Assembly (NCBI GenBank): GCA_937860145.1
Contig: CALMBF010000133.1
Location: 1-63,736, forward strand
Direction: 5' to 3'
Source of the DNA: an uncultured Geobacter sp.
GTDB taxonomy: Bacteria; Desulfobacterota; Desulfuromonadia; Geobacterales; DSM-12255
DNA: 63,736 nt
In this document: positions 3,515 to 42,340 of the stretch, in pieces
Layout: every line of letters begins with the position of its first letter
Numbering within the stretch: position 1 is the first letter of the stretch
Notes under the pieces: generated by a model
The model's input: the letters and a program-made list of their open reading frames with translations, nothing else
Database searches by the model: none
What the model was told of the DNA's origin: nothing
Translations under genes and position numbers: made by a program

Positions 3515-3522
3515 GTGGGGTC

Positions 3523-9589: not shown

Positions 9590-9666
9590 GCAAACTCATT
9601 GGACGGGGAATGAATGGCATGCAAGTCGGTCGGCACTCTACATCTGATGCATTAGGGGAGAAGGAA

Positions 9667-11934: not shown

Positions 11935-11939
11935 GAGAC

Positions 11940-14128: not shown

Positions 14129-14158
14129 GGCCTCTGGGCATGGGATTGTAGGTGTTGC

Positions 14159-14181
14159 TCCATCTGCAGTGCACAGATGGA
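14159..14181 (+). other. hairpin between moaA and the MOSC gene
   Basis: TCCATCTG at 14159-14166 and CAGATGGA at 14174-14181 form a perfect eight-pair stem with a seven-base loop. It lies in the only sizeable gap (96 bases) of the cofactor block. No T-run follows, so it may be a processing or stability hairpin or an operator rather than a terminator. Confidence 0.4.
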
Positions 14182-14224
14182 TAGAGAATCATGAAGGTGA
14201 GTTGAGAGAAAGAGGAGAAGATCA

Positions 14225-15927: not shown

Positions 15928-15974
15928 CTCCGGTTCAACCGGCAATGAACACAGAAACCCAGGGGAAGACGATG

Positions 15975-17071: not shown

Positions 17072-17622
17072 AGATACCGGTAATTTCCATTGTAGCGAAG
17101 AGCGGAACTGGCAAGACAACGCTTCTGGAAAAATTGATAGCCGAATTGAAGCGCCGCGGCTATCGCGTAGGGGCCATAAAACATGATGCCCATGAATTTG
17201 AAATCGATCATCCCGGCAAGGATTCATGGCGATTGACGCAGGCAGGAGCCGATACCATGGTTGTCAGTTCAGCCGCGAAAACAGCAATGGTCAAACAGAA
17301 TCCGGCATCGGAAGAACCTTCTGTACAGAGCATAGTAGCCACCGTTTGCGCAGACATGGACATTGTCCTGACCGAAGGCTTTAAAAGGAGCAATTTCCCG
17401 AAGATAGAAGTGCACCGAAAGGAGCGGAGCGACGCTCTGCTCTGCCGTGGTGATGAGCATGATGCAACTCTCATTGCGGTGGCTTCCGATCAGGAGTGGG
17501 GCCTGGATGTCCCGGTATTTGATCTCAATGATGTTTGCGGCATCTGTACGCTGCTGGAAAGAAGATTCCTGGGCGTCAGATCTGAATCCAAAGCAGATGT
17601 GGCATTGATGGGAATCGGATAG
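17068..17622 (+). CDS. mobB: molybdopterin-guanine dinucleotide biosynthesis protein MobB
   Basis: The 184-residue P-loop protein has Walker A AKSGTGKTTLLEKL and KHDAHEFEIDHPGKDSWRLTQAGA, the typical MobB follow-on, plus VLTEGFKRSNFPKIEVHR. MobB binds GTP and assists MobA but is not essential in model organisms. The start overlaps the mobA stop (ATGA). It is the last recognisable cofactor gene of the block; the next gene follows after ten bases. Confidence 0.92.
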   Translation: MKIPVISIVAKSGTGKTTLLEKLIAELKRRGYRVGAIKHDAHEFEIDHPGKDSWRLTQAGADTMVVSSAAKTAMVKQNPASEEPSVQSIVATVCADMDIVLTEGFKRSNFPKIEVHRKERSDALLCRGDEHDATLIAVASDQEWGLDVPVFDLNDVCGICTLLERRFLGVRSESKADVALMGIG

Positions 17623-17632
17623 GCAGGACTGA

Positions 17633-18727
17633 ATGCGTCATTTATTCGAGACATCGGAAATTAACGGCCTGGAACTGAAGAACCGGATAATCAGGTCTGC
17701 CACCTGGACAGGTATGGCAGATGATTCGGGTAATTGTTCGGGGCAGATGATTCAGTACTATGAATCACTTGCACAGGGAGGGGCCGGGCTGATCGTAACC
17801 GGACACACCTATGTGATGAAGAACGGGCAGGCGGGTCCGCGGCAACTGGGGGTCGACTGCGAAGAGGCAATACCTGTGTTGAGAGGTTTGACCGCAGCTG
17901 TTCACAAGAGTGGCGGCAGGATAGTCATGCAGCTCTCCCATGCCGGCATGTACGCCGATCCACAACTGACCGGGCTGGACGCCAAAGCCGTATCCGCAAG
18001 CAAGCGTTATACACCGTATCGATTGAAAGAACTGACCTCTGCGTGCATTGAAGAAATAGTGCAGGCATTTGCAGCGGGTGCACAGCATGCCGAAGCAGCC
18101 GGATTCGACGGGGTTCAGATTCATGCAGGCCATGGCTATCTCCTGAGTCAGTTCCTGTCGCCTGCATATAACGTCAGGACCGATGGCTACGGAGGAGCGT
18201 TAGAAAACAGGGCGAAGCCTCTGATGGAAATCGTGCGGCGGATACGGGAAGCAACAGGCAGACATTACCCTTTGCTGGTGAAGCTGAATTGTCAGGATTT
18301 TCTCGAGGGTGGCTTGACAGTGGATGAGTCGCAGAAAGTCGCCGTCATGCTGGAGGCCGAAGGGGTTGATGCTATCGAAGTGAGTGGCGGCACCCGCGAG
18401 TCGGGCAAGTTTAAATCTACGAGAACATCGATAGTTTTGGAAAATGATGAAGCATACTTTGAGCAGTTTGCCCGTTCTTTCAAACAGCAACTAAGGATTC
18501 CGATTGCTCTGGTGGGAGGGATACGTAGACACGAAACCGCCGCGAGATTGCTGGAAACCGGGGCGGCGGATTACATCGCCATGAGCAGGCCGTTTATCAA
18601 GGAGCCTGGCTTTGTCAAGAGGTGGCAGTCCGGTAACACTGACATGGTCGGCTGCATGTCTGATAATGAGTGCCTGAGTATAGGTTTGAGAGGCGCCGGC
18701 ATCAGGTGCAGACACGGACAGGATTGA
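17633..18727 (+). CDS. Old Yellow Enzyme-type NADH:flavin oxidoreductase
   Basis: The 364-residue TIM-barrel flavoprotein has the OYE motifs NRIIRSATWTG, MQLSHAG, GVQIHAGHGYLLSQFLSP, NVRTDGYGGALENRAK and VGGIRRHETA..IAMSRPFI. It lacks the extra C-terminal flavodoxin/NADH domains of 2,4-dienoyl-CoA reductases, so it is the short form. It would reduce activated double bonds of a substrate that sequence does not reveal. It is ten bases after mobB and two bases before the radical SAM gene. Confidence 0.88.
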   Translation: MRHLFETSEINGLELKNRIIRSATWTGMADDSGNCSGQMIQYYESLAQGGAGLIVTGHTYVMKNGQAGPRQLGVDCEEAIPVLRGLTAAVHKSGGRIVMQLSHAGMYADPQLTGLDAKAVSASKRYTPYRLKELTSACIEEIVQAFAAGAQHAEAAGFDGVQIHAGHGYLLSQFLSPAYNVRTDGYGGALENRAKPLMEIVRRIREATGRHYPLLVKLNCQDFLEGGLTVDESQKVAVMLEAEGVDAIEVSGGTRESGKFKSTRTSIVLENDEAYFEQFARSFKQQLRIPIALVGGIRRHETAARLLETGAADYIAMSRPFIKEPGFVKRWQSGNTDMVGCMSDNECLSIGLRGAGIRCRHGQD

Positions 18728-18729
18728 AT

Positions 18730-19914
18730 ATGGAAAAAGTGTTTCTCTGTACGGCATTCAAATTGTGTGACAACAACGGGTATCTGACTACTCAGCTGGC
18801 GAACTTTTTCAGGTGCAACAACCTGGAGCTGGTCAGGGATCCCGAAGAAGCCGACACCATTGTTATTACTACCTGCGGGTTCGACCAGGAGCGAGAGGAC
18901 GAGTCGGCGGCGCTCGTGAACCATTATCATGACAAATACGAAGGATCCAAGGAAGTAATCGTATCCGGATGCCTTACCAAGATAAATCCCGATGCTTTCA
19001 AGCCGGGACTCACTCTGATCGGAAACAAGGAGCTGAACCTGTTCAATGATCGCTTCAACGCTCGCGAGAGAATCGAACAGGTTCCGGGAAGCGATCTGTC
19101 CAATGAGTATATCAGCGACGAGTATGGGTTCATCGATGCCTATTACATCCAGATATGCCAGGGGTGTGTAAATAATTGTAGTTACTGCGCCATAAAGAAA
19201 TCAAAGGGTTATGTAGATAGCAAACCGGTTGAGGAGATCCTCCTTGAAGTCCGGCGAGGAATAGATCTCGGCTTCAAGCGTTTCATGCTGTTGGGCGACG
19301 ACTGCGGCAGCTATGGCGTGGATCTCGGCTGCGACCTGGCACAATTGCTCAACAGGCTCACCGCCTACGACATAAGGATTCTCATAAATTACATCGAGCC
19401 GGGGAAGTTCCTCTCGGTCTATCCCAAAATCGATTCGTCGGCGCTGGAGATGATCGATTTCATGAACATTCCGGTTCAGGCTGCATCCCCGCGCATCATC
19501 GGCCTGATGAACCGGAGCTACGATCCCCAAAGGGTCATGGAGGCAGCATGGGAGATCAAGGAGAGATTCCCGGCTGTTTATCTGGAGACCCACATCATTT
19601 TCGGGTTCCCGGGAGAAACCAGGGAGGAATTCCGCGAGACGCTGCGACTGGCCGATTGTTTCGACGCCGTCATCTATTTTCGTTACACGGATCGGAAAGG
19701 GGTCCGATCCACATCGCTTCCTGGAAAGGTCTCGGAGGAGGAACTGCAACAGAGGATCGACGAGATTGTCGCTCACCCGAGATTTACCTGGAAGCAGCAG
19801 GATGCCGTCCCCCCTTTGGTGCTATTGGGATACGGGCCGGAGACTTCGGAGCTGTTCAACACTCTGCGATTGAAAGAAAAGATAATTGCGTCGGAAAATG
19901 GAAATCACAACTGA
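18730..19914 (+). CDS. MiaB-like radical SAM protein without a TRAM domain
   Basis: The 394-residue protein has an N-terminal UPF0004-type domain with three cluster Cys (C13, C49, C81), then the radical SAM site CVNNCSYC (C146, C150, C153), and the methylthiotransferase-like HIIFGFPGETREEF. The C-terminal TRAM RNA-binding domain of MiaB/RimO is missing. It therefore belongs with methylthiotransferases in architecture, but its substrate may not be tRNA or ribosomal protein S12. The start at 18730 lies two bases after the OYE stop; a longer reading extends into that gene. Confidence 0.8.
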   Translation: MEKVFLCTAFKLCDNNGYLTTQLANFFRCNNLELVRDPEEADTIVITTCGFDQEREDESAALVNHYHDKYEGSKEVIVSGCLTKINPDAFKPGLTLIGNKELNLFNDRFNARERIEQVPGSDLSNEYISDEYGFIDAYYIQICQGCVNNCSYCAIKKSKGYVDSKPVEEILLEVRRGIDLGFKRFMLLGDDCGSYGVDLGCDLAQLLNRLTAYDIRILINYIEPGKFLSVYPKIDSSALEMIDFMNIPVQAASPRIIGLMNRSYDPQRVMEAAWEIKERFPAVYLETHIIFGFPGETREEFRETLRLADCFDAVIYFRYTDRKGVRSTSLPGKVSEEELQQRIDEIVAHPRFTWKQQDAVPPLVLLGYGPETSELFNTLRLKEKIIASENGNHN

Positions 19915-19935: not shown

Positions 19936-20328
19936 ATGGATATGATGAGAATGAGCGACATCCTTGTCGTCGATGACGATATCTATTGCCAGGACTTCCT
20001 GAGTATATTTCTTGGTTCTAAAGGTGTTGATGTGAGAACAACATCAGGAGGAATTGAGGCGCTTGAGATACTGAAACACTGCAAATTCAAAATGATAATT
20101 ACCGACTGCAACATGCCGGGAATGAACGGTTTGGAATTGGCTGCCATGGTCAGAGAACATCATCCGGGGACTCCTGTCGTCATGGTAACGGGAGAAATAA
20201 AATCAGACGTTGAAGAGAAAGCCGCAACTGCAGGTATCTCGAAAGTACTTTCCAAACCGATAAATCTTCAATCGCTTATGGAAGTTGTCAAGTCTTCGCT
20301 GAATGCAAGTCTTATGGTGTCTGCTTAA
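19936..20328 (+). CDS. receiver-only response regulator
   Basis: The 130-residue CheY-like protein has the acidic pocket VVDDD, phospho-acceptor D57 (ITDCNMPGMNG), the Thr/Ser position in VMVTGE, and the conserved Lys in LSKPI (K107). No output domain is present. It is followed by a sigma-like gene, an anti-sigma-like gene and a STAS-like gene, suggesting that phosphorylation feeds into a partner-switch type of control. No histidine kinase lies next to it. Confidence 0.9.
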   Translation: MDMMRMSDILVVDDDIYCQDFLSIFLGSKGVDVRTTSGGIEALEILKHCKFKMIITDCNMPGMNGLELAAMVREHHPGTPVVMVTGEIKSDVEEKAATAGISKVLSKPINLQSLMEVVKSSLNASLMVSA

Positions 20329-20383
20329 GGATTGAATCTGTTTGGTTCGATGATTTCGGGCTGGCCAAAAGCTGGAGTGCACG

Positions 20384-20866
20384 GTGGAAAACAATGACAA
20401 GAGAGCTTCACTCGTTGACGCTCGCCAGGCAGTAAAGAAGATAAAATGCATGAGAAATGCAGATGCTGGCAACAATGTCGCAAGGCTGACGAAAGAGACC
20501 GAAAGAACTCTTGTCGAGGAATACTTGAAGAGCAGGAATATTCTGCTGATCGCGCCGATTGTCAAGCAGAATCTTGAGCTGGTGAATGGAGTGGCGCGCA
20601 AGTATGTGAAGCTTGCGGGGAATTACAGCGTCTTAAAGGACCTCATCGGAGTTGGGGTCCTCGAGGTGATTCGTGCTTTGAACGAATACCGCTCCAGCGA
20701 AAGCGTTGACTTTGCCACGTACGCTGACCCGTTGGTTAGGCGTGCGATAATCAAGGAAATTCATCGTTTTAACTCCACAAGGGAGGTGCGCAATGTCTGG
20801 CGGAGGCTCGCCCATATCACTTTCATCAATACGTGTCGCAATTGCAAAAGACAATGCGCGTATTGA
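20384..20866 (+). CDS. sigma70 region-2-only protein (truncated sigma factor-like)
   Basis: The 160-residue protein, starting with GTG, contains a sigma70 region 2: LELVNGVARKYVK, DLIGVGVLEVIRALNEY and VDFATYADPLVRRAIIKEI align with the core-binding and -10-recognition helices (compare LRLVVSIAKKY, FSTYATWWIRQAI). Regions 3 and 4, needed for -35 recognition, are absent; the last 35 residues match nothing I know. It may be a small alternative sigma, an anti-anti-sigma decoy or a decayed gene. A tiny zinc anti-sigma-like gene follows in the same frame 30 bases after the stop. Confidence 0.7.
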   Translation: MENNDKRASLVDARQAVKKIKCMRNADAGNNVARLTKETERTLVEEYLKSRNILLIAPIVKQNLELVNGVARKYVKLAGNYSVLKDLIGVGVLEVIRALNEYRSSESVDFATYADPLVRRAIIKEIHRFNSTREVRNVWRRLAHITFINTCRNCKRQCAY

Positions 20867-21483: not shown

Positions 21484-22878
21484 ATGAGTGAACGATACGA
21501 TTATGACCTGATTGTTCTGGGGGCAGGTCCCGGAGGGTATGTCGCCGCCATCAGGGCGTCGCAGCTCGGGTTGAAAACTGCTGTGATTGAACGAGGCAAG
21601 CCGGGCGGTGTCTGCCTCAATGTGGGATGCATTCCGTCTAAGGCACTCATAGACCAAGCGCGTATTTTCGGGGAAAGATCTTCGCTCGTCGAAATGGGAG
21701 TTTCTGTCGATACTTCCCGGCTCGATTACCGGAAAGTGTTCGGAAAATCGCGCGCTGCCGCTGACCAGCTTTCTAAGGGGGTTCGGTACCTTCTGAAAAA
21801 GAACGGCGTCGACTATCTGGAAGGGGCGGCAAAATTCGCGACCCCGCATAACATAACCATCAACGGCCAGAGGCGCGTCACCGGAAAATTTGTGCTGATC
21901 GCAACGGGCTCCCGGCCGGCGGAGATCAGCGGCTTCGAGTTCGACGAGAAACAGGTGCTCTCCTCTACCGGGGCACTGATGCTGGAGGAACTTCCCAAAC
22001 GGATCGTGATCCTTGGTGCGGGGGCAATAGGAGTCGAATTCTCGTATATCTTCAGCTCCTTCGGTGTCGATGTGACGCTGGTGGAGATGATGCCCAGCAT
22101 TCTTCCTCAGGAAGACCCGGAAGCTTCCGCCCTGGTGGCGAAATCCTTTGCGAAAAAAGGGGTTAAGATCAAAACATCTACTAGGGCCATCTCATGCGAG
22201 AAGGCCACTAATGGGGTGAAGATCGTACTGCAAGGAGAGGCGGGCGCACGAGAGACGGTGGAGGCCGACAAGCTCCTGGTGGCGGTTGGCAGAACACCCA
22301 ACTCCGATGGGCTGGGGCTTGAAGTTATCGGCGTACAGATCGAGAAGGGTGCTGTAACAGTCGGGGACTATTACGAAACGACCGTCCCCGGGGTATATGC
22401 CATCGGCGACCTGATTAAGTCCCCGCTTCTTGCCCACGTGGCTTCCAAGGAGGGGGAGGTCGCGGTCGAATATATGGCGGGGCATGCTACGGCGAAGAAG
22501 GTGGACCCGGACCTGATCCCCTTTGCCACTTACTGCGAGCCCCAGGTCGCAAGCTTCGGTAAAACGGAGCCGATGCTCGAAAAAGCCGGTTCTACCTTCG
22601 GGAAAGCGGTGTTTCCCTTCAGGGCCATTGGCAAGGCCGTTGCCGTGGAGAAGGGGGAAGGTTTCGTTAAGATACTGTTCGACCCCGATACGAAAGAGAT
22701 CCTCGGCTGCACCATTGCCGGCTCCGAAGCCACCGAACTGATCCATGAATTGCTGCTTGCCAAGAAGTCCGAACTCACCCTAGAGGATGTTGCGACCATG
22801 GTCCATGCCCATCCGAGCCTCTCCGAAGGGGTCATGGAGGCATCGCGGGCAGCGGAAGGATGGGCGATTCATATCTGA
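21484..22878 (+). CDS. lpdA: dihydrolipoyl dehydrogenase-type flavoprotein
   Basis: The 464-residue flavin disulfide reductase has FAD motif LIVLGAGPGGYVAAIRA, redox pair C44/C49 (GGVCLNVGC), NAD site VILGAGAIGVEFSYIF, the second FAD motif VYAIGDLI and a C-terminal dimer region with HAHPSLSE, where His and Glu complete the active site. No 2-oxoacid dehydrogenase subunits are nearby. The next gene, 38 bases on, is arsM, so this enzyme may supply dithiol reductant to the arsenic pathway; that is inference. AAGGAG precedes the start. Confidence 0.9.
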   Translation: MSERYDYDLIVLGAGPGGYVAAIRASQLGLKTAVIERGKPGGVCLNVGCIPSKALIDQARIFGERSSLVEMGVSVDTSRLDYRKVFGKSRAAADQLSKGVRYLLKKNGVDYLEGAAKFATPHNITINGQRRVTGKFVLIATGSRPAEISGFEFDEKQVLSSTGALMLEELPKRIVILGAGAIGVEFSYIFSSFGVDVTLVEMMPSILPQEDPEASALVAKSFAKKGVKIKTSTRAISCEKATNGVKIVLQGEAGARETVEADKLLVAVGRTPNSDGLGLEVIGVQIEKGAVTVGDYYETTVPGVYAIGDLIKSPLLAHVASKEGEVAVEYMAGHATAKKVDPDLIPFATYCEPQVASFGKTEPMLEKAGSTFGKAVFPFRAIGKAVAVEKGEGFVKILFDPDTKEILGCTIAGSEATELIHELLLAKKSELTLEDVATMVHAHPSLSEGVMEASRAAEGWAIHI

Positions 22879-22916: not shown

Positions 22917-23981
22917 ATGGCTGAGACAACGAACAACATTCAGGAACAGGTCAAGGAATATTACGGCAAGATCCTCACCAAATCAAAGGACCTCAAGACC
23001 GGCGCCTGCTGTAACAGTGAGTCTCTCCCGCCGTACCAGCGCGAGGCCCTTTGCCTCATTGATGACGAGATTATCGAAAAATTCTACGGCTGCGGTTCGC
23101 CGATTCCCCCCGCCGTAGAGGGGTGCACGGTGCTCGACCTTGGTTGCGGTACCGGCCGCGACGTTTACCTCGCCTCGCGCCTGGTCGGTCCAGACGGATT
23201 CGTTATTGGCATCGACATGACCGACGAGCAGATCGCGGTGGCGCGGAAGCACGTCGACTCCCAGATGGCGCGCTTCGGATACGGTCAGCCTAATGTGGAG
23301 TTCCGCCAAGGGTACATCGAGGATCTTTCTGCGTGCGGCATAGAGGACAATTCGATCGACCTCGTCGTTTCCAACTGTGTCATCAACCTCTCCCCGCAAA
23401 AGGAGAAAGTCTTCGCGGAAATTTTCCGGGTGTTGAAACCAGGGGGGGAACTCTACTTCTCCGACGTTTTCTGCGGCAGGCGGATTCCCGGCGTATTGCG
23501 CGACGATCCCGTGTTGTACGGCGAGTGTCTCGGGGGAGCGCTCTACATCGAGGACTTCCGGAGGATGCTGCGCCGGCTCGACTGCCTCGATTACCGGGTG
23601 GTTTCCAAAAGGCCAATTTCGTTTGATAACCCGGGGGTGGAATCCAGAGTGGGGATGATCGACTTTTATGCCATGACTGTTCGTGCCTTCAAACTCCCAT
23701 GTCTCGAGGATATCTGCGAGGATTATGGCCAGGCGGCGGTGTATCTCGGCACGATCCCGGAAATGCCGCACCGCTTTCCGCTCGACGACCACCACCTCTT
23801 CATCGCCGGCAAGCCGATGCTCGTCTGCGGGAACAGTGCCGCCATGGTTGGCGAGACCCGTTTCGGCAAGCATTTCCGGGTCATCGGCGACCGCTCGGTC
23901 CACTTCGGCCAGTTCGATTGCGCGCCGGCGGCTGCCAAGGATGCAGCCGGCGACCAGTGCAGCGGCGGTTCCTGCTGCTGA
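22917..23981 (+). CDS. arsM: arsenite S-adenosylmethionine methyltransferase ArsM
   Basis: The 354-residue class I methyltransferase has SAM motif VLDLGCGTGRDVYLAS and the ArsM Cys set: C31/C32 near the N-terminus, C59, C154 (SNCVINLSP) and C204 (YGECLGGAL), which bind As(III). The tail GDQCSGGSCC adds more thiols. ArsM converts arsenite to methylated arsenicals, the usual first step to arsenosugars. The start at 22917 (MAETTNN) is chosen because an earlier in-frame start lies inside the preceding gene. It belongs to the cluster running on to arsS. Confidence 0.92.
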   Translation: MAETTNNIQEQVKEYYGKILTKSKDLKTGACCNSESLPPYQREALCLIDDEIIEKFYGCGSPIPPAVEGCTVLDLGCGTGRDVYLASRLVGPDGFVIGIDMTDEQIAVARKHVDSQMARFGYGQPNVEFRQGYIEDLSACGIEDNSIDLVVSNCVINLSPQKEKVFAEIFRVLKPGGELYFSDVFCGRRIPGVLRDDPVLYGECLGGALYIEDFRRMLRRLDCLDYRVVSKRPISFDNPGVESRVGMIDFYAMTVRAFKLPCLEDICEDYGQAAVYLGTIPEMPHRFPLDDHHLFIAGKPMLVCGNSAAMVGETRFGKHFRVIGDRSVHFGQFDCAPAAAKDAAGDQCSGGSCC

Positions 23982-24017
23982 CCGGCACCTGACACGACAT
24001 GATATTCAACAGGCAAA

Positions 24018-24878
24018 ATGGGTAAATTTATGAAGTACGCACACGATTTCATTGGAGAATTTGTCGGTACCTTCCTGCTGGTCCTTTTCGGCTGCGGCTC
24101 CGTTGCCGTGACGATTCTTTTTTCCGCTCACGTCGGCCTGTTGCAGGTGGCCGTGATCTGGGGGCTGGGGGTGACGGTCGCCATCTATGCTACCCGGCAT
24201 CTCTCCTGCGCCCATCTCAACCCCGCGGTCAGCATCGCCATGGTGCTGGGCCGCAGAATGTCCTTTTCCCGGCTCCCCATTTATCTCTGTGCGCAGTTCA
24301 GCGGCGCTTTCGTCGCGGCGGGTCTTCTCTATCTGCTGTTTGCCGGCTCCATCGCCCAATATGAGAGCATCAATCATATTCTGCGCGGTTCTCCCGCTTC
24401 GGTCAAGACAGCCATGATGTTCGGCGAATTCTATCCGAACCCCGGGGCGGGGCTCTCCGCCGTGGTTACCCCATTAACCGCCTTCCTTGCCGAAGCAATC
24501 GGAACTTTCGTCCTTGTGTTCCTGATCTTTTCCCTTACCGAAGGGTGCAACCTGGGGAGGCCGGATGACGCCCTCGCGCCTGCCTTCATCGGCCTGACCG
24601 TAACCATCATAATCTCGGTCATCGCCCCGTTGACCCAGGCGGGCCTCAATCCGGCACGGGATCTCTCCCCGCGGCTCTTTGCCATGCTTGCCGGATGGCG
24701 TGATGCCGCCTTGCCTGACCACAACTTCGGTTTTTTCACCATCTACGTCCTTGGCCCGATTACCGGCGCTTCCCTGGCGGCAGGGATGTTCGTTTATCTG
24801 GTTGAACCGCTGATGCGTGGTAAAGGGAAAGGGAGTGATGCCTGCGGATGCGTGGTGATCCAGACGACGAAACCATGA
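24018..24878 (+). CDS. MIP-family aquaglyceroporin
   Basis: The 286-residue membrane channel has six helices and two pore motifs, HLNPAVS near residue 73 and LNPARDLSPR near residue 213, as in GlpF/AqpS. Flanked by two arsM-type genes, it most likely passes arsenite or methylated arsenic(III) species, as AqpS does in arsenic loci of other bacteria. The C-terminus carries a CGC group. An alternative start at 24030 (MKYAHDF) is possible; neither start has a strong ribosome site. Confidence 0.88.
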   Translation: MGKFMKYAHDFIGEFVGTFLLVLFGCGSVAVTILFSAHVGLLQVAVIWGLGVTVAIYATRHLSCAHLNPAVSIAMVLGRRMSFSRLPIYLCAQFSGAFVAAGLLYLLFAGSIAQYESINHILRGSPASVKTAMMFGEFYPNPGAGLSAVVTPLTAFLAEAIGTFVLVFLIFSLTEGCNLGRPDDALAPAFIGLTVTIIISVIAPLTQAGLNPARDLSPRLFAMLAGWRDAALPDHNFGFFTIYVLGPITGASLAAGMFVYLVEPLMRGKGKGSDACGCVVIQTTKP

Positions 24879-24936
24879 TTTAGACGAGGCTGCGTATGGC
24901 GATTCATAGCTGAGCAGGCTTGAGGATGATGAACCG

Positions 24937-26007
24937 ATGACCGATCAAACTATTCAGGAACAAGGTGAAAAGGCAGGGGGGAGTTGCAGCATCGAGATGT
25001 TCCCGCTCCATCAACGACTGGCGCTCTCCCGGATAGAGGAGGAGGTGCTGGACAAGTTCTTCGGCTGCGGGTCGCCCCTTCCTCCGGCGATAGAGGGGTG
25101 CACCGTGCTCAATCTCGGGTGCGGCACCGGTCGGGACGTCTACCTTGCCTCCCAGCTCGTCGGCCCGGATGGCTATGTAGTAGGGATCGACATGACCAAC
25201 GAGGAGTTCGAGCGCTACGTCGCGTCCCAGTTTCCTGACCTCGGCTACCGGCTTTTCGCCGCGGACGGGGACGAGGAGCAGCTTGCCGTCGCACGCAGAC
25301 ATATAAGCGCTCACATGGATCGCTTCGGCTTTCGCAGGCCGAATGTCGATTTCCGGCAGGGAGCCCCGGAGGACCTTACGGCATGCGGCATAGCCGACGA
25401 GTCTGTCGACCTGGTCATTGCCAACTGCGGCCTTAACCTTTCGCCGGACAAGGAGCAGCTGTTGAGTGAGGTTTTCCGGGTACTGAAACCGGGGGGAGAG
25501 TTTTACTTCGCCAATATCTTCAGCGGCAAACGTATCCCGTCCGAACTCCGGGACGATCCGGAGTTTTACGCCGAATGCTACGGCGGGGCCCTTACCCTGG
25601 AGGAATTCAGTCGTCTGCTGAAACGGGCGGGCTTCAACGAGTACAGAGTCGTCTCCGAATCGCTTCTGGAGCCGTCCAACCCGGTCTCTGCGGCAAAAGG
25701 GCGGGAGACCGATTTTTACTCCATGAAAATGCGGTTGTTCAAACCGCAGACTCTTGAAGAGAGCAGTCAGAACCCCGGAAATACCGTGGTCTACCTGGGG
25801 ACCATTCCGGAGATGCCGGATCAATTCGCACTGGATCTGGACCATCTTTTCGTGACAGGGGAACCGAGGCGCGTGTACGGCAATACTGCCGCCATCCTCG
25901 GCGGAACGCGCTACGCCCGGTATTTCCGTGTGTACGCCACCTGTGCTATCCATCGCAGTCCATTCGTTCCAGGAGAAGCTGCCGGCGTGATCCTTGGGGG
26001 CATATGA
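24937..26007 (+). CDS. second ArsM-like methyltransferase with an insertion
   Basis: The 356-residue protein is clearly paralogous to the ArsM at 22917 (shared NLGCGTGRDVYLAS, GIDMT, NLSPDKEQ, RVLKPGGEFYF, ECYGGAL, YLGTIPEMP). It keeps C44, C164 and C214 but has only C17 near the N-terminus. It carries about 26 extra residues after GIDMT (residues 88-115) and has lost the Cys-rich tail. It may use a different arsenic substrate from ArsM or work with the overlapping radical SAM gene (ATGA junction at 26004). Confidence 0.85.
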   Translation: MTDQTIQEQGEKAGGSCSIEMFPLHQRLALSRIEEEVLDKFFGCGSPLPPAIEGCTVLNLGCGTGRDVYLASQLVGPDGYVVGIDMTNEEFERYVASQFPDLGYRLFAADGDEEQLAVARRHISAHMDRFGFRRPNVDFRQGAPEDLTACGIADESVDLVIANCGLNLSPDKEQLLSEVFRVLKPGGEFYFANIFSGKRIPSELRDDPEFYAECYGGALTLEEFSRLLKRAGFNEYRVVSESLLEPSNPVSAAKGRETDFYSMKMRLFKPQTLEESSQNPGNTVVYLGTIPEMPDQFALDLDHLFVTGEPRRVYGNTAAILGGTRYARYFRVYATCAIHRSPFVPGEAAGVILGGI

Positions 26008-27428
26008 AAGTCCTGCTGGTACGAGTACCGATACAGACGTGTGAGGTAATGAAGCAGGTGACGTTTACCTACTTCGCCGAGCCGGTCGGGCTTCATTACT
26101 TGGCTGACGCGCTTGCCGCGGCGGGGATGGATTCCACGGTCCATGACATGTTTCTGGATGCCGACCCGGAATCGTTCATGGCTGCAGTTGCCGCCTACCG
26201 TCCCGATGTCGTCGGGTTCAGCAGCCTGATCCTGGGCTATGACAACGTGGGGCTGCTGTCGGGCCTTCTCAAAGCCGGGTTCCCGAACGTGACGACGGTG
26301 GTGGGCGGCCCCTGCACGTTCATGCCTTCCCGTGTGCTGATGGAGCAGGGGACCACCATCGATTACCTTATAAAAGGGGAAGGGGAGGAGTTGTTTCCCC
26401 GACTCTGCAGGGTACTATCCGGTTGCACATCGGAGGAGCTTGCCGGTATCGACGGCCTTGCCTGGCGGGATGGCGGAATGATCGTGGAGAATCGGCGAAA
26501 GCATTTCATCGACCCGGCTGCCATCAGCTATCCCCTCGACCGGTACCTGGATTACAACGATGCCATGGAAGGCTCCATCATGACCGTCATGATGGGGAAG
26601 CCGCCCATCGCCTTCATCGAAGCGTCACGGGGGTGCCCATTCCGGTGCAGTTTCTGCGGCGTCCACGAGCCGTACCGCACCCGGCCGCCGGAAAAGGTCG
26701 TCGCGGAGATGGGGGAGTTGTATCGCCGGCATGGGGTCAGGAAGTTCGTATTCGGCGACTACACCCTGACCGCCGATCGAGCGCATGCGGAGCGGCTCTT
26801 TCAGCTGATAATCGACAGCGGGCTTCGCGTTGAATGGGGGTGCGACACCCGGGTGGACTGCGTCTCGCCGGAGCTGCTCAAGCTCATGAAGCGGGCGGGG
26901 TGCAGGGTCATCTTCTATGGGGTGGAATCCTTCCACCAGGAGACCTTGGACATCTACAACAAGCGAACTGATCCGGCGACCATCGAGCAGGCGCTCCGGG
27001 ACACCCGCCGGGCAGGGATACAGTCTCTCGCCTACATGATGCTCGGTGCCCCGGGGGAGACCAGGGAGATGATCCGGGAGAACTCGGCCACGCTGAATAG
27101 CCTGGGGGTCGACTATGCCTTGGCCGGTATCGCCCGGCTCTTTTGCGGGACCCCGCTGTTCGAGCGTGCAGTGGAGCGGGGGGTGATCGACCGGCGGCAC
27201 GGGGAGGAGTGCTGCCTGACCGGGCAGATCGACTGGATCCCGGTCTACGAGGAAACTCTCACCTATGCCGAGATGAAGGAACTGGAAGCGGAGGTGGTGA
27301 AGAAGTTCTACTATCGGCCGGGGTATGTCTGGCAAAGGCTGCGGGGGGTGCGGGACGCTGTGGAGTTTTGGCGGATGTCGCGGTTTCTCGCCCGTTTCAC
27401 CGTCAGTCGATTTTCCCGTGCCTGCTGA
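26004..27428 (+). CDS. B12-binding-domain radical SAM protein
   Basis: The 474-residue protein has an N-terminal cobalamin-binding-like domain (VLLVRVP, AAYRPDVVGFSSL, VVGGP, IKGEGEE) and a radical SAM domain with CPFRCSFC near residues 212-219. A HIV-type Elp3-like core (VIFYGVESF, YMMLGAPGETREM) follows. Many such class B enzymes methylate unreactive carbon or phosphorus. Coupled by ATGA to the second arsM-like gene, it may alkylate arsenic or modify an organoarsenical. It is not a standard member of arsenosugar clusters as far as I recall. Confidence 0.8.
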   Translation: MKVLLVRVPIQTCEVMKQVTFTYFAEPVGLHYLADALAAAGMDSTVHDMFLDADPESFMAAVAAYRPDVVGFSSLILGYDNVGLLSGLLKAGFPNVTTVVGGPCTFMPSRVLMEQGTTIDYLIKGEGEELFPRLCRVLSGCTSEELAGIDGLAWRDGGMIVENRRKHFIDPAAISYPLDRYLDYNDAMEGSIMTVMMGKPPIAFIEASRGCPFRCSFCGVHEPYRTRPPEKVVAEMGELYRRHGVRKFVFGDYTLTADRAHAERLFQLIIDSGLRVEWGCDTRVDCVSPELLKLMKRAGCRVIFYGVESFHQETLDIYNKRTDPATIEQALRDTRRAGIQSLAYMMLGAPGETREMIRENSATLNSLGVDYALAGIARLFCGTPLFERAVERGVIDRRHGEECCLTGQIDWIPVYEETLTYAEMKELEAEVVKKFYYRPGYVWQRLRGVRDAVEFWRMSRFLARFTVSRFSRAC

Positions 27429-27526
27429 GGGGGGTGGATCATGTGCTGGTCAGGTATCTCTTTACCCGGTTGTGAGGGGATTTCCTCATTACGGGACAGG
27501 GCGAAACGTGGAAAGGAGTCGAGTTC

Positions 27527-27862
27527 ATGGAAGAATTCTATTACTCCCCGGAAGACTTGGGGAAGTTCGGTGATATCGGTAAGGATGCACCGGATCTGGC
27601 GCAGAAGTTTTTCGACTATTACGGTGCGGTTTTTGCCGAGGGGGCGCTGACGGAGCGGGAAAAGTCGCTGATCGCCCTTGCCGTCGCCCACACGGTGCAG
27701 TGCCCATACTGCATCGACGCCTACACCCGAGCCTGTCTCGAAAAGGGATCGAATCTCGGCGAAATGACCGAGGCGCTCCACGTGGCTGCGGCCATCCGGG
27801 GCGGAGCGTCACTGGTACATGGTGTTCAGATGAGGAAGGTGGCCGAAAAACTGTCGTTGTGA
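27527..27862 (+). CDS. carboxymuconolactone decarboxylase/AhpD-like protein of arsenosugar clusters
   Basis: The 111-residue protein has the AhpD-type core with H55, C59 and C62 (AHTVQCPYCIDAYTRAC), plus C70. This redox CxxC is typical of peroxidase-like CMD proteins. A family of this size, known from arsenosugar or selenium-related radical SAM loci, accompanies ArsS; the gene lies 161 bases before arsS here. It may protect or reduce As(III) intermediates. Some relatives are selenoproteins, but all three positions are Cys codons here. Confidence 0.85.
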   Translation: MEEFYYSPEDLGKFGDIGKDAPDLAQKFFDYYGAVFAEGALTEREKSLIALAVAHTVQCPYCIDAYTRACLEKGSNLGEMTEALHVAAAIRGGASLVHGVQMRKVAEKLSL

Positions 27863-27870
27863 CGATTGGG

Positions 27871-27988
27871 GGCTGTGGCTTTCACGCCATCTCGCCGCCG
27901 TCCTCGTCGCTCCCTTGTGCGACGTAGCGCTGCTACGCCTCCGCGGTTGCTCCTTCGGGTGCGACGATCTGGCGCAAAATCCGCAGCC
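27871..27988. repeat. 118-base palindromic intergenic element
   Basis: The outer arms GGCTGTGGCTTTCACGCC (from 27871) and the reverse complement of its other end, GGCTGCGGATTTTGCGCC (ending 27988), match at most positions, and a perfect inner palindrome GTAGCGCTGCTAC lies near the centre. It fills most of the gap between the CMD gene and arsS. It looks like a dispersed REP/BIME-like element; only one copy is in the window, so its repeat status is inferred. Confidence 0.55.
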
Positions 27989-28023
27989 CTGTTGCGCCGC
28001 ACCATTTATAAAAGAGGAATTGT

Positions 28024-29004
28024 ATGGGAACTGACAAGCCGGGATTGGACATGGATACTTTTTCGACAACACTCCTGAAGCACGGGTTGTCTCTGCATCA
28101 CGACGTGACGGAAACGCTGCAGGTAAACGTCGGAAAGCTGTGCAACATGGCCTGTCGTCACTGCCACCATGAAGCGGGGCCGGATTGCTCCGAGATCATG
28201 AGCCGCGACACGATGGAGGAGGTGGTCGCCTACGCGCGTCGCGCCCGGTTCAAAACAGTCGACATCACCGGAGGGGCTCCGGAACTGGTGCCGCATATCG
28301 AGTATCTTGTCGGGAACCTCGCCCCGCTGGCCCCGAGGGTTCTCTTTCGCACCAATTTGACCGCGATGTGGGATCACCGTCGCGACTGGCTGCCGCAGCT
28401 TCTCAAGATGCATCGCGTAGAGCTTGTCGCCTCGCTTCCTTCCCTCAACGCGGGCCAGGCGGCGTCCCAACGTGGGACGGGAACCCTGGAAAAGAGTCTG
28501 GCCATGTTGCGGTTTCTGAATGAACTGGGGTTCGGCCGGGAAGGAAGCGGCCTCCTGCTCCAGCTGATAGTCAATCCGTCCGGCGCATTTCTGCCACCGG
28601 GGCAGCGCCAGCAGGAAATCAAGTTTCGCCATGACCTGCACCGCAAGGAGGGGATCGTCTTCAACGACCTCCTCACCATCGCTAATGTCCCGTTGGGACG
28701 CTTTCGCAGGTGGCTCGAATCCTCCGGGAACTTCAGCGGCTACATGGAGAAGCTTTCGTCTTCGTTCAATCCGGCAACGGTGCCGAATTTGATGTGCCGA
28801 TCACAGGTTACGGTCAGTTGGGACGGGTATGTCCACGATTGTGATTTCAACGTTGCTGACGGGTTGTGGCATGGTCCGCACAGACTTCATATTTCCTCGA
28901 TGCCCGGAGGACCCATCCCCGGCGCCCCCATCGCCACCGGAGAGCACTGTTTCGCCTGCACGGCAGGGGCCGGATCATCATGTGGCGGCGCGTTGGCCGC
29001 TTGA
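28024..29004 (+). CDS. arsS: arsenosugar biosynthesis radical SAM protein ArsS
   Basis: The 326-residue radical SAM protein has CNMACRHC (C40, C44, C47) with HHEAGP directly after, DITGGAPEL for SAM binding, SFNPATVPNLMCR, a DGYVHDCDFN segment and the tail CFACTAGAGSSCGG. This set marks the TIGR04167/ArsS family. ArsS joins the 5'-deoxyadenosyl group of SAM to dimethylated arsenic, giving the arsenosugar precursor. AGAGGAAT precedes the start. Relatives with selenocysteine exist, but the codons here are Cys. Confidence 0.9.
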   Translation: MGTDKPGLDMDTFSTTLLKHGLSLHHDVTETLQVNVGKLCNMACRHCHHEAGPDCSEIMSRDTMEEVVAYARRARFKTVDITGGAPELVPHIEYLVGNLAPLAPRVLFRTNLTAMWDHRRDWLPQLLKMHRVELVASLPSLNAGQAASQRGTGTLEKSLAMLRFLNELGFGREGSGLLLQLIVNPSGAFLPPGQRQQEIKFRHDLHRKEGIVFNDLLTIANVPLGRFRRWLESSGNFSGYMEKLSSSFNPATVPNLMCRSQVTVSWDGYVHDCDFNVADGLWHGPHRLHISSMPGGPIPGAPIATGEHCFACTAGAGSSCGGALAA

Positions 29005-29060
29005 TCTGGAGCAGTTCCGGTGCATTTTAGAATAACACTCAATAAATGGAGGTCGTACAG

Positions 29061-30512
29061 ATGTTTAAGTTGAAAGATCAGACCCTGTTCCGCCAGCACT
29101 GTTACATCAACGGACAGTGGCTCAGTGCCGATGACGGAGGGACCATCGCGGTCAATAACCCTGCCACCGGCGAGATCATCGGGACAGTCCCCAGGATGGG
29201 AGCAGCCGAGACCCGTGCCGCCATTGAGGCAGCAAATGCCGCCTTTCCCGCCTGGCGGGCAAGGACCGCTGCCGAGCGCTCTACTATCCTGCGGCGCTGG
29301 TTTGAGTTGATGATGGAAAACCAGGAGGACCTGGCGATCCTGATGACCGCCGAGCAGGGAAAGCCTCTGGCGGAATCCCGCGGCGAAATCGCCTATGCAG
29401 CTTCATTCATCGAGTGGTTTGCCGAGGAAGGGAAACGTGTCTATGGGGACATCATCCCTCCCCATGAAAAGGACAAACGGATTGTCGTGATCAAGGAACC
29501 TATCGGTGTCTGTGCCGCCGTCACTCCCTGGAACTTTCCGTCCGCCATGGTCACCCGCAAGGCCGGGCCTGCCCTGGCTGTTGGCTGCACCATGGTTCTC
29601 AAGCCGGCCAGCATGACCCCCTATTCAGCCCTGGCACTGGCTGTCCTTGCGGAGCGGGCCGGAATTCCCGCCGGGGTGTTCAGCGTCGTTACCGGTGCGT
29701 CGGGCGCCATCGGCGGTGAGATGACCGCGAACCCGATTGTACGCAAGCTTACCTTTACCGGTTCAACGGAAATCGGCAAGCAACTCATCGAGCAGTGCGC
29801 CGGAACGGTTAAGAAGCTCGCGCTCGAGTTGGGGGGGAACGCGCCCTTCATAGTCTTTGACGATGCCGATCTCGACGCGGCAGTGGAAGGGGCACTCATC
29901 TCCAAGTACCGGAACACGGGCCAGACCTGCGTTTGCACCAACCGTTTCCTGGTGCAGGACAGCGTTTACGATGACTTTGCCGCCAAACTCGTGGCTGCTG
30001 TCGAGAAGATGAAGGTCGGTGACGGCCTGCTTGGAGAGACCCAGCAGGGGCCGTTGATTGACATAAACGCGGTAGAGAAGGTCGAAGAGCATGTCGCCGA
30101 TGCACTTGCCAAAGGAGCGAAGCTTCTTTGCGGAGGCAGGCGGCATCCGCTCGGAGGTTCCTTCTACGAGCCGACGGTCCTGGCCGATGTGACCCCGGAT
30201 ATGGCGGTAGCCAGCGAAGAGACTTTCGGCCCTATTGCCCCTCTGTTCCGCTTCACGACCGAGGAGGAGGCGATCCGGATGGCCAACGACACCGAGTTCG
30301 GCCTCGCTTCCTACTTCTACAGCCGGGACAACGCCCGCATCTGGAGAATTGCCGAATCGATAGAGTACGGGATTGTCGGCATCAATACTGGGCTGATCTC
30401 GACGGCGGTGGCGCCGTTCGGCGGGATAAAGGAGTCTGGCTTCGGCCGCGAGGGGTCCAAGTACGGGGTCGATGATTTTCTGGAGATCAAGTACCTCTGC
30501 ATGGGAGTGTAG
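29061..30512 (+). CDS. gabD: NAD(P)-dependent succinate-semialdehyde-type dehydrogenase
   Basis: The 483-residue aldehyde dehydrogenase has PWNFPSAMVTRKAGPALA, the NAD-loop FTGSTEIGK, catalytic Glu in LELGGNAPF and catalytic Cys in NTGQTCVC. AEQGKPLAESRGEI and the C-terminal PFGGIKESGFGREGS are typical of GabD. The CVC pair near the active site matches redox-sensitive SSADHs. The start at 29061 follows GGAGG. It ends the arsenic cluster or begins a separate unit; a link with arsenic is not evident. Confidence 0.8.
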   Translation: MFKLKDQTLFRQHCYINGQWLSADDGGTIAVNNPATGEIIGTVPRMGAAETRAAIEAANAAFPAWRARTAAERSTILRRWFELMMENQEDLAILMTAEQGKPLAESRGEIAYAASFIEWFAEEGKRVYGDIIPPHEKDKRIVVIKEPIGVCAAVTPWNFPSAMVTRKAGPALAVGCTMVLKPASMTPYSALALAVLAERAGIPAGVFSVVTGASGAIGGEMTANPIVRKLTFTGSTEIGKQLIEQCAGTVKKLALELGGNAPFIVFDDADLDAAVEGALISKYRNTGQTCVCTNRFLVQDSVYDDFAAKLVAAVEKMKVGDGLLGETQQGPLIDINAVEKVEEHVADALAKGAKLLCGGRRHPLGGSFYEPTVLADVTPDMAVASEETFGPIAPLFRFTTEEEAIRMANDTEFGLASYFYSRDNARIWRIAESIEYGIVGINTGLISTAVAPFGGIKESGFGREGSKYGVDDFLEIKYLCMGV

Positions 30513-31237: not shown

Positions 31238-31462
31238 ATGGATGTTACCATAAAACTGTTTGGGCCATTTCGAATCGATCGTTTTAAGAAAGCTGTTCGC
31301 GAGTATCCCTCTGGCACATGTGTGAGTGAGATAATTGATGAACTCCGCATCCCTCTTCATCTTCTCGGGATCGTGCTTATTAATGATCTTCATGCAGGGA
31401 TTGAAGATGTGCTCAAAGATGGTGATACCGTGTGCTTGCTGCCTTTCATAGACGGAGGGTAG
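31238..31462 (+). CDS. MoaD/ThiS-like ubiquitin-fold sulfur carrier
   Basis: The 74-residue protein has the beta-grasp pattern (VTIKLFGPFR, CVSEIIDELRIP, LINDLHA, LKDGDTVCLLPFIDGG) and ends in Gly-Gly, the tail that is adenylated and thiocarboxylated. It lies just before the tungsten AOR gene, and a MoeB/ThiF-like activator is in the same operon at 34322. It therefore probably serves as an AOR-dedicated molybdopterin synthase small subunit. No moaE was seen in this operon or elsewhere in the window. Confidence 0.85.
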   Translation: MDVTIKLFGPFRIDRFKKAVREYPSGTCVSEIIDELRIPLHLLGIVLINDLHAGIEDVLKDGDTVCLLPFIDGG

Positions 31463-31514
31463 CATGAAGGGAATGTGCTCTTAAGAGGTCTACCAACTAT
31501 GAGGAGTAATCAGT

Positions 31515-33362
31515 ATGAAAGTTTTTACCACAGATCCAGTTTCAGAACCGTCTTCTGTTGTATATCTGCGCTGTACTGTCGATCTGAATAGCGCTGATGT
31601 GCGCTTCGAGGACGTTCCTTGCCGCAATCTGGAGGACGTACTTGGAGGCTTTGGCCGTTCTTTCCAAATCCTGGCTGAACGGAATATCTCTCACGCGTAT
31701 TGCGAGGGGAATCCATTGATCGTCAATACTGGCCTGTTGACCGGCACCACCGCCATGACCGGTCTGCGTACCTATTTTTCCGGGTACAGCCCGCTCAAGG
31801 AGTCAAAAAAGGGGCTGCCGGCGGCCATGTGGTCGACGGGTAGCGGGAATTTCGGCGCGAAATTCAAGTGGACCGGCCTGGATGAATTGATTTTTGAAGG
31901 CCGTTCCCCGAAACCGGTCTATGCCTTGATCACGGACACTCCTGAAGGGCCGGCGGTCGAGCTGAAACCGGCCGATCACCTGGTCGGGCTTTTTGCTCAT
32001 GACAAAATGATGGTGTTGAAGCAGGAGTATGGTGTTAATGCCCACTTCGCTGCAATCGGCCAGGCAGGGGAGCAGTGGGAGAATGTCTACATGGGTGCGG
32101 TGGCGCTTTCAACCGACAACCAGCTCAAATCCGGCGAAGACAAGATGCGTTTTGCCGGTCGCGGCGGCATGGGGAGCCTCATGGGGTACAAGAACCTCCT
32201 TGCCCTGGTGGCCCTTAGCAGAGACAAGATCAAGGCCGTTTCCCCAGAGGTCAGGAACGTCAATATCAATGTCGTCAAAGGAGGCGGTGCGGCGCGACTG
32301 CAACCGATCAGTCGCGGTGGCGGCGGCGGCACCTGGGCTGCCTACGATGTTCTGCAGGCCTTTCATGCTGTGCCGATAAACAATTTCCGGCCGCAGGGGA
32401 ACGACCTGCCGGAGAAACTGTTCCGGGAACATGTGGAAAAGGAATACGTGATTAAATCGGAAGCCTGCTATCGCTGCGGGATAACCTGCCATAACAATGT
32501 CCATGAAAAAAAGGAAGACAACAGTACTGGCAGGTTCCTGGCCAAATTCGACTATGAACCGCTCAACCTGCTGGGCACCAATATCGGTATTCATGATGCA
32601 GGACAGGCGGCCCGGCTGATCCATTTGTGCGACAACTACGGTATGGACTCCATCTCCCTGGGGGTAACCATCTCCTATCTGCTGTCCTACAATGAGCGGC
32701 ACCCCGAAAAGCCGCTGCTGAATGGGGCAACCTTTGGAGACTATGACAAGATCAAGGAGCTTGTCGAACTGGCCGGACTGGGGAAGTTGCCGGAGATTGG
32801 CCGGGGTTCCAAGCGCCTTTCCGAAAGCACTGGCGAGACTTCCTATGCGTACCACGTCAAGGGGCTGGAGTTGCCTGCTTACCAGCCGGAAACAAATCCG
32901 GGATATGCCTGGGCCATCGCCGGTGGGCATATGTCCATGGGGACGTACGGGTTGCTTACCCGCGAAGGGAAATCGGACATAGAGTCCTGGGTGGAGGGGA
33001 TTACCAGGACCAAGCTGCAGATTGTCGGCTTCGACATGATCGGTCTGTGCAAGTTTTTCGATATTACCAAAGGCATCTGCACCCAGATGGTGGTGGACTG
33101 TCTCAAGAGTGAGTTCGGCCTGGATGTGACACCGGAAGCCCTGGCCGCAGCCGTGCGCAGGGCTTTCCTGCTCGGTCTGGCTCTCGAGCTGCGACAAGGC
33201 TACGACAAGTCTGAATACACCCTGCCTGCCGAGGTATGGGAACGGCGGAACCCGAACATAAAGCTGCCCGATATAACCTCCCCGGAATTTATTGCCGAAC
33301 TCCAGAAACGGGTCTGGGAGGTCTTCGAACCGGAGTTGGAAGGACTTCTCGGTCAGCCATGA
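31515..33362 (+). CDS. aor: aldehyde:ferredoxin oxidoreductase (tungsten pterin enzyme)
   Basis: The 615-residue protein has the AOR N-terminal domain (NTGLLTGTTAMTG, GSGNFGAKFKWTG, FAGRGGMGSLMGYKNL), the [4Fe-4S] ligands C318, C321 and C325 (ACYRCGITC) and C512, and the pterin-contact region DNYGMDSISLGVT. AOR-family enzymes use a bis-pterin tungsten site to interconvert acids and aldehydes with ferredoxin. The operon adds a MoaD-like carrier, an FMN reductase-like protein and a MoeB-like enzyme. The substrate class (aliphatic versus aryl-CoA) cannot be fixed by eye. Confidence 0.9.
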   Translation: MKVFTTDPVSEPSSVVYLRCTVDLNSADVRFEDVPCRNLEDVLGGFGRSFQILAERNISHAYCEGNPLIVNTGLLTGTTAMTGLRTYFSGYSPLKESKKGLPAAMWSTGSGNFGAKFKWTGLDELIFEGRSPKPVYALITDTPEGPAVELKPADHLVGLFAHDKMMVLKQEYGVNAHFAAIGQAGEQWENVYMGAVALSTDNQLKSGEDKMRFAGRGGMGSLMGYKNLLALVALSRDKIKAVSPEVRNVNINVVKGGGAARLQPISRGGGGGTWAAYDVLQAFHAVPINNFRPQGNDLPEKLFREHVEKEYVIKSEACYRCGITCHNNVHEKKEDNSTGRFLAKFDYEPLNLLGTNIGIHDAGQAARLIHLCDNYGMDSISLGVTISYLLSYNERHPEKPLLNGATFGDYDKIKELVELAGLGKLPEIGRGSKRLSESTGETSYAYHVKGLELPAYQPETNPGYAWAIAGGHMSMGTYGLLTREGKSDIESWVEGITRTKLQIVGFDMIGLCKFFDITKGICTQMVVDCLKSEFGLDVTPEALAAAVRRAFLLGLALELRQGYDKSEYTLPAEVWERRNPNIKLPDITSPEFIAELQKRVWEVFEPELEGLLGQP

Positions 33363-37533: not shown

Positions 37534-37570
37534 ACCGGGCCTCACTTCGAATTATTTTCGCAGCAACCAG

Positions 37571-42212: not shown

Positions 42213-42340
42213 TTCGTCGGTTGCCATATATTTACCAAATATTTAAGTTTATAACCGTATCCCTAGCGGCGGCTTTCCGGCCGGGAGCTACGACCGAAAA
42301 AGCTGGTTCGGCAAATATCACTCAGGGCGGAGTATTCCCC

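Follow-up and report, generated by a model that had tools for sequence, protein, structure and literature searches.

What might a bacterium make with two arsenite methyltransferase (ArsM) genes, an arsS gene and a B12-binding radical S-adenosylmethionine (SAM) enzyme that lie side by side? We addressed this question in a 63,736-nucleotide stretch of DNA from an uncultured Geobacter sp., referred to here as the window; it corresponds to contig C133, and the genome, which is 95% complete, amounts to 3.96 Mb in 207 contigs. An earlier note on this DNA had described an extended organoarsenical cluster at positions 22917-29004, in which an altered ArsM coupled to the B12-type enzyme might yield a new arsenical with additional carbon. 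That extent was too small, since the conserved unit is an island that spans about 33 kb, from 608 to 33362. We propose, with confidence that is about evenly balanced, that the island encodes an accessory organoarsenical-tailoring pathway that was grafted onto an older molybdenum/radical SAM module.

The six genes of the arsenic core were located where they had been placed before, all on the plus strand, and encode an ordinary ArsM (ArsM1), a MIP-family channel, the altered ArsM (ArsM2), the B12-binding radical SAM protein (B12 protein), a CMD-type protein and ArsS. Both ArsM proteins scored below the cut-off of 263 bits of the arsenite methyltransferase model NF008823 (199.6 bits for ArsM1 and 155.4 bits for ArsM2). 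The stop codon of ArsM2 and the start codon of the B12 gene have an ATGA in common, so that translational coupling, as the note had claimed, is plausible in this genome. We rejected the couple as a conserved unit because the two genes are adjacent only in the window, while the order in both Geomonas azotofigens and a Desulfuromonadaceae metagenome-assembled genome (MAG) is arsM2-arsM1-MIP-B12. The idea of an extended arsenic cluster held in that it reaches beyond arsM and arsS and is conserved between genera, but not in its emphasis on the coupled pair.

A protein comparison with the window indicated that the block 608-33362 is kept in nearly the same order in Geomonas azotofigens Red51 (loci L010 and L059); the genes for YceI (9014), the response regulator (19936), CMD, succinate-semialdehyde dehydrogenase and TetR (30561) had no match in the Geomonas stretch. 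In the MAG (L011 and L058), the block is kept from the TIGR04282-like gene to ArsS, and the molybdenum enzymes are outside view because the contig ends beyond the TIGR04282-like gene. Desulfosarcina cetonica (L012 and L054) has retained the segment from the PhnP-like gene to the TIGR04282-like gene, followed by a gene for a MiaB/RimO-like radical SAM protein that we call MTT and, directly after it, the B12 gene; its locus contained no match to the DUF169 protein. The molybdo-oxidoreductase MoA1 is 89% identical in Geomonas and 66% in D. cetonica, and the GNAT domain, which in the window is fused to MoA2, has its own gene in D. cetonica (L012:4899-5309). ArsM2, ArsM1, MIP, the B12 protein and ArsS occur together in all three loci with ArsM2 (the window, L010 and L011).

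To find orthologues of the B12 protein, we scanned 84,980 species genomes with six peptides, a procedure that more distant orthologues can escape. Beyond the host, orthologues were recovered from Geomonas azotofigens (81% identity), the MAG (64%) and D. cetonica (58%). Among the 97 genomes of the host's order, host included, which served as the set of relatives for the counts of the B12 protein, MTT, ArsM and ArsS, the B12 protein and MTT were present in the same two, namely the host and Geomonas; neither was found in the host's one congener or in the 11 other members of the family that were searched. The B12 protein was detected in one of 395 genomes of a phylum sample (the host itself) and in one of 195 relatives of D. 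cetonica (D. cetonica itself), and a profile search identified MTT in 3 of 395 genomes of the D. cetonica phylum: D. cetonica and the genomes G754 and G1035. In these counts only the best candidates of each genome were scored, at most 16, 4 and 8 for the B12 protein in the sets of 97, 395 and 195 genomes, and at most 19 and 4 for MTT in the sets of 97 and 395. MTT shares the locus of the B12 protein in all four genomes, as a direct neighbour in D. cetonica only, and in three of the four the locus also contains ArsM1, ArsM2 and ArsS. The patchy spread and the 81% identity across families suggest that the island may have been transferred horizontally. Spread on plasmids was considered separately and rejected: a tblastn search of 72,556 plasmid records matched 86 records with ArsM2, 1 with DUF169, 98 with MTT and 198 with the B12 protein, and the best place in every matching record was <60% identical.

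We also examined the molybdenum/radical SAM module outside arsenic loci. MTT has a UPF0004 domain (40.9 bits, cut-off 27), a Radical_SAM domain (78.6 bits, cut-off 29.5) and three invariant cysteines, C14, C50 and C82, which we take to be the usual N-terminal cluster cysteines. It differs from MiaB and RimO in that no C-terminal TRAM domain was matched at E 0.001 and in that the methylthiotransferase model TIGR00089 gave 213.1 bits, under its cut-off of 251. Both MTT and the TrsS-like gene are present in all five readable copies of the module (the window, Geomonas, D. cetonica, G754 and G1035). The copies in G754 and G1035, read over a whole 30.7-kb contig and over positions 455500-533000 of a contig, respectively, retain the genes for the PhnP-like protein (55% identity to the window over 150 residues and 62%, compared to 71% in Geomonas L059 and 57% in D. 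cetonica L054), both molybdo-oxidoreductases, the TrsS-like, TIGR04282-like and DUF169 proteins and MTT.

The strongest alternative to a tailoring pathway is that the molybdenum, TrsS-like, MTT and B12 genes have a non-arsenical substrate of their own, or serve the maturation of a molybdenum or tungsten enzyme, and that arsM, MIP and arsS were captured as resistance genes. We consider this somewhat unlikely. The constancy of MTT and the TrsS-like gene in the module and the inclusion of molybdenum cofactor (Moco) genes and an aldehyde:ferredoxin oxidoreductase (AOR) family gene in the island agree with it, and several observations weigh against our proposal. No arsM, arsS or B12 gene was found in the stretches read beside the module in G754 and G1035, nor any arsM or arsS in those read around the module in D. 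cetonica, and a module without adjacent arsM and arsS in these three genomes fits one with a substrate other than arsenic. Genome-wide, G754 and G1035 have no B12 orthologue (best scores of 178.5 and 168.1 bits, compared to 932 bits for that of D. cetonica). In D. cetonica, no ArsS exceeded the cut-off (the highest score was 43.6 bits) in a genome-wide test that covered this genome, the MAG, Geomonas and the 97 relatives, and at E 1e-20 its one ArsM-like protein is a fusion to DUF5714 on another contig. The B12 protein reached the cut-off of no named family, the best scores being 153.2 bits for BchE, 132.4 bits for a RiPP C-methyltransferase and 127.2 bits for HpnJ. Finally, the likenesses to the module in the genome G054, discussed below, are weak (28-41%).

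Other evidence ties the module to arsenic. Among the genomes searched, ArsM2 was confined to the island, and it has been rebuilt instead of retained as a plain copy, which counts against capture as a resistance gene. In G754, an old-yellow-enzyme (OYE) stretch that is 55% identical to that of the window over 157 residues continues in frame into an arsenite methyltransferase (L101:3-1262; NF008823 319.2 bits, cut-off 263), and is followed by an AOR-family gene with 24% identity to the one in the island. Relatives of four module genes, encoding PhnP-like (39%), GNAT (28%), DUF169 (41%) and TIGR04282-like (33%) proteins, are located beside ArsS-ArsM-MIP in G054. ArsM-DUF5714 fusions were identified in D. 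cetonica, G754 and G1035 alike (L055:5-1690, L074:1-3090 and L075:1-3054; counted in these three only); those of G754 and G1035 also carry an N-terminal radical SAM domain, that of D. cetonica is near MoaC and MobA, and the genome-wide number of ArsM-like proteins at E 1e-15 is three in G754 and two in G1035. Moco genes, a MoA2-like or a TrsS-like gene were present at three of eight ordinary arsM loci (L097, L098 and L099). The family TIGR04282 takes its name from arsenosugar loci, and one annotated plasmid carries a TIGR04282-like gene next to a gene that resembles arsM. On these comparisons, a link of the Mo/MTT module to arsenic is moderately favoured.

The description of ArsM2 as an altered paralogue was borne out. 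In a tree of 16 rows, the ArsM2 proteins of the three islands formed one group with 100/100 support, and they share the loss of the N-terminal YYG segment and of the C-terminal GGSCC tail as well as an insertion of 25 residues. Changes on the SAM side include VLNLGCG or ILNLGCG in place of VLDLGCG in ArsM1 and NCGLNLS or NCGVNLS in place of NCVINLS. In contrast to these changes, C17, C44, C164 and C214 are invariant in all 14 ArsM rows and align with C44, C72, C174 and C224 of CmArsM, which we take to be the arsenic-binding set. The predicted model of ArsM2 is of modest quality (mean predicted local distance difference test score, pLDDT, of 72.5), contains a putative helix (88-98) within the insertion and matches ArsM structures including human AS3MT with Z scores of 27.5-29.9 (4kw7 29.9), followed by the next methyltransferase family at 17.0. 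Judged from the sequences, ArsM2 is a distinct clade in which the arsenic-binding cysteines are kept and the SAM side is remodelled.

Long-type ArsM proteins are present in 12 of the 97 relatives. The two island genomes among these have two copies each, and the remaining 10 have a single copy, which in two cases (G096 and G040) is a fragment. The fragments were left out, and ArsM2 was absent from all eight intact loci that we compared, each of which is of the ArsM1 type. A MIP gene is present in five of these eight stretches, and so is an ArsS gene in five of the eight (some stretches stop at contig ends). The commonness of the arsM-MIP pair, the second and ordinary ArsS in the host genome and the retention of all four cysteines are compatible with ordinary detoxification by a duplicated arsM, in which ArsM2 is either redundant or specialised for a later (second or third) methylation and the B12 protein works on another substrate. 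We find this improbable given the altered SAM side, the loss of both terminal segments in all three ArsM2 proteins and the company of the B12 protein at every ArsM2 locus.

The B12 protein matched the Pfam models for B12-binding (75.4 bits, cut-off 32.1) and Radical_SAM (84.4 bits, cut-off 29.5), and the cysteines of its CX3CX2C motif (C211, C215 and C218) are invariant in 15 of 15 rows. Its predicted model (mean pLDDT 87.7) has the same fold over most of its length as AprD4 (Z 34.2), MgmA (30.7), OxsB (30.4), TsrM (30.1) and CysS (29.9), with which it shares the motif and the B12-binding domain, although it is only 16-23% identical to these proteins and below all family cut-offs. AprD4 is not known to depend on cobalamin. 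No reaction was assigned from the fold because methylases follow closely behind the top-ranked AprD4, and the predicted structure would be compatible with methylation, dehydration or ring contraction alike. A new arsenical with additional carbon, as the earlier note had imagined, is thus possible, as one option among several, since the nearest folds include methylases, the diol dehydratase AprD4 and the ring-contracting OxsB.

We aligned the B12 protein with 11 paralogues, five from the host and six from G754 and G1035 (loci L003 and L006 were left out). All four orthologues have C13, C104 and C286, and no paralogue has cysteine at any of these positions, three of the paralogues being gapped at C13; the position of C104 is histidine in 8 of the 11. 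C13 is located in the loop after strand 1, which in MetH carries the cobalt-binding histidine. By analogy, C13 as a cobalt ligand is a lead only. Its position and the exclusiveness of the three cysteines would suit a reading in which the B12 enzyme methylates or alkylates arsenic itself with a cysteine on cobalt; we rate this as very improbable because ArsM methylates trivalent arsenic without radicals, loop 12-20 of the model has a pLDDT <50, HgcA, the precedent for such a ligand, has a different B12-binding fold, and the cysteines may bind substrate or nothing. The precedent itself is that HgcA is thought to use a cysteine as its lower axial ligand (PMC13331322).

Our proposal of a tailoring pathway starts from the genes and their synteny, the ArsM2 clade with its kept cysteines, the constancy of MTT at the B12 locus and the OYE-ArsM fusion, which are established, whereas all of its substrates, the order of its reactions and its product are inferred. 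Arsenite would enter through MIP and be methylated by ArsM1, with dihydrolipoyl dehydrogenase and the CMD protein holding the arsenic trivalent and thiol-bound. ArsS would add the 5'-deoxyadenosyl group, and ArsM2, with its rebuilt SAM side, could methylate an arsenical too bulky for ArsM1. Tailoring of the organic part, most plausibly at the sugar that comes from adenosine, would then fall to the B12-type radical SAM protein together with MTT and the TrsS-like protein, which may methylate it, dehydrate it or rearrange a ring; redox steps would be carried out by the molybdo- and AOR-type enzymes.

The island hints at an arsenic compound that has not been described. Few assignments are known for the enzymes that follow ArsS on the way to arsenosugars and arsenolipids. 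In its boldest form, which we regard as unlikely, the proposal is that four radical SAM enzymes and the molybdo-enzymes form one pathway to an undescribed organoarsenical, the carbon skeleton being rebuilt after ArsM and ArsS by the B12-type enzyme, whose cobalt loop contains a cysteine, the TRAM-less MTT and the relative of Tes and TrsS. If true, cobalamin-type radical SAM chemistry would be tied to arsenic. No paper that links arsenic with a B12 radical SAM enzyme was found, and none of the titles and abstract openings listed joins these genes, in a search that left most subscription papers out of reach and is weak evidence of novelty. The presence of the island in a named strain, Geomonas azotofigens Red51, makes the candidates ArsM2, the B12 protein, MTT, the TrsS-like and TIGR04282-like proteins and OYE testable.

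The ArsS of the window is not the only one in the host, a second being located on contig C137. Two ArsS proteins over the cut-off were found in each of Geomonas and the MAG, and at least one in 77 of the 97 relatives. The phylogeny comprised 27 rows: 20 loci of the relatives, chosen by best score, those of the three islands, and another four. TGA-bearing ArsS proteins of the relatives are not among the 20. The ArsS proteins of the islands fell with the TGA-bearing Geomonas sequence and were separated from the remaining 23 rows with 100/100 support, but were not resolved as a group of their own. This second Geomonas ArsS (L057:5694-7006) contains an in-frame TGA that is probably read as selenocysteine, and is located beside a CMD gene that is 85% identical to that of the window.

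Several smaller features were observed in and around the island copies. Adjoining CMD (75%) and dihydrolipoyl dehydrogenase (57%) genes in G1035 (L066:12312-14421) are near genes that by eye resemble those for 2-oxoacid dehydrogenases, which suggests a lipoamide-linked role for CMD. A remnant of CMD, consisting of two ends without the middle as judged by eye from the DNA, is located between the B12 gene and ArsS in Geomonas (approximately L010:9520-9613). The TrsS-like gene of D. cetonica is split over two overlapping frames (L012:1364-2745), indicative of a frameshift or an assembly error. In the MAG, a frame that resembles a transposase by eye (L091:1152-2300) follows the TIGR04282-like gene near the end of the contig, so the island may have been cut there by an insertion. 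Just past the island in the window is an efflux-like operon (36652-41371; HlyD, FUSC-like and outer-membrane factor, by eye). No tRNA gene that could mark a border was found in the window, and a regulator beyond the block is also near other copies of the island.

Table 1. Features of the island and its surroundings in window coordinates, with the evidence for each (percentages are protein identities).
Feature	Coordinates	Strand	Evidence
PhnP-like MBL-fold hydrolase	608..1393	+	PhnP 128 bits, cut-off 272.25 not reached
Molybdo-oxidoreductase MoA1	1421..3514	+	best model PhsA 326.8 bits, cut-off 694; no leader by eye
DmsB-like Fe-S subunit	3487..4053	+	133.7 bits, cut-off 214.1; 88% in Geomonas
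Membrane subunit (by eye)	4056..4853	+	no NCBIfam match at E 1e-15; 64% in Geomonas
TrsS/Tes-like radical SAM protein	5086..6405	+	TrsS 371.5 bits, cut-off 490; 71% in Geomonas
Molybdo-oxidoreductase MoA2 with C-terminal GNAT domain	6398..8998	+	ArsN2 model 28.3 bits, cut-off 125
TIGR04282-like transferase	9610..10503	+	86.8 bits, cut-off 134; 57% in D. cetonica
4Fe-4S/DUF169 protein	10496..11476	+	80% in MAG L058
Molybdate/Moco genes: ModE-like, MoeA, MoaA-like, MOSC, MOT1, MoaC, MobA, MobB	11542..17622	+	by eye except MOT1; conserved in L059 and L058 (hits of the MoaA-like stretch disregarded)
OYE-family oxidoreductase	17633..18727	+	relative in frame with ArsM in G754 contig C61
MTT, MiaB/RimO-like radical SAM protein	18730..19914	+	no TRAM match; at B12-protein locus in 4/4
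Response-regulator receiver protein and sigma-factor-like protein	19936..20866	+	
Dihydrolipoyl dehydrogenase (lpd)	21484..22878	+	TIGR01350 518.7 bits, cut-off 408.8
ArsM1, ordinary arsenite methyltransferase	22917..23981	+	profile, alignment, tree
MIP-family aquaglyceroporin-like channel	24018..24878	+	profile; present at 5/8 ordinary arsM loci
ArsM2, remodelled ArsM paralogue	24937..26007	+	alignment, tree, fold match
ArsM2 insertion (residues 89-113), soon after DM of SAM motif II	25201..25275	+	alignment, model
B12-binding radical SAM protein, ATGA overlap with ArsM2	26004..27428	+	Pfam domains, model
CMD/AhpD-like protein TIGR04169	27527..27862	+	197.6 bits, cut-off 120
ArsS, second copy in this genome	28024..29004	+	TIGR04167 368.8 bits, cut-off 300
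Succinate-semialdehyde dehydrogenase (SSADH)	29046..30512	+	no match in Geomonas or MAG stretches read
MoaD-like small protein (by eye)	31238..31465	+	46% in L010
AOR-family protein	31515..33362	+	61% in Geomonas
Regulator, sigma-54 type by eye	42332..43882	+	outside block; 60% L010, 48% L064, 49% L102

Compared to known arsenosugar loci, which contain ArsM, ArsS, TIGR04169 and TIGR04282/04283, the island shares ArsS and CMD at scores over the cut-offs, ArsM1 and a TIGR04282-like gene. An ArsM with arsenic-binding cysteines, as used to recognise such loci, is present in the form of both ArsM1 and ArsM2, and neither reached the cut-off of 400 bits of the curated arsenosugar ArsM model NF038099 (101.2 and 71.2 bits). 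The island differs from these loci by a second ArsM clade, radical SAM proteins of the B12, MTT and TrsS-like types, molybdo-enzymes and Moco genes, and by an ArsS that falls with the TGA-bearing ArsS of Geomonas. The arsinothricin (AST) cluster arsQML likewise has arsM and a radical SAM gene as neighbours (PMC8552651), but a pathway of that type, in which the radical SAM enzyme moves a 3-amino-3-carboxypropyl group onto arsenic, is scarcely credible here, since the match to the ArsL model NF040542 is weak (53.0 bits, cut-off 450), the AST ArsM model gave 153.6 bits for ArsM1 and 135.6 bits for ArsM2 (cut-off 500), and no ArsQ-like permease was noticed by eye among the island genes, no ArsQ search having been made. 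Trs-type systems resemble the island in the TrsS-like radical SAM protein, although it scores below the TrsS cut-off. TrsS is listed as a selenoprotein family in PMC13188914, and TrsS-like radical SAM proteins of other genomes are accompanied by ArsM-like fusions and Fe-S proteins.

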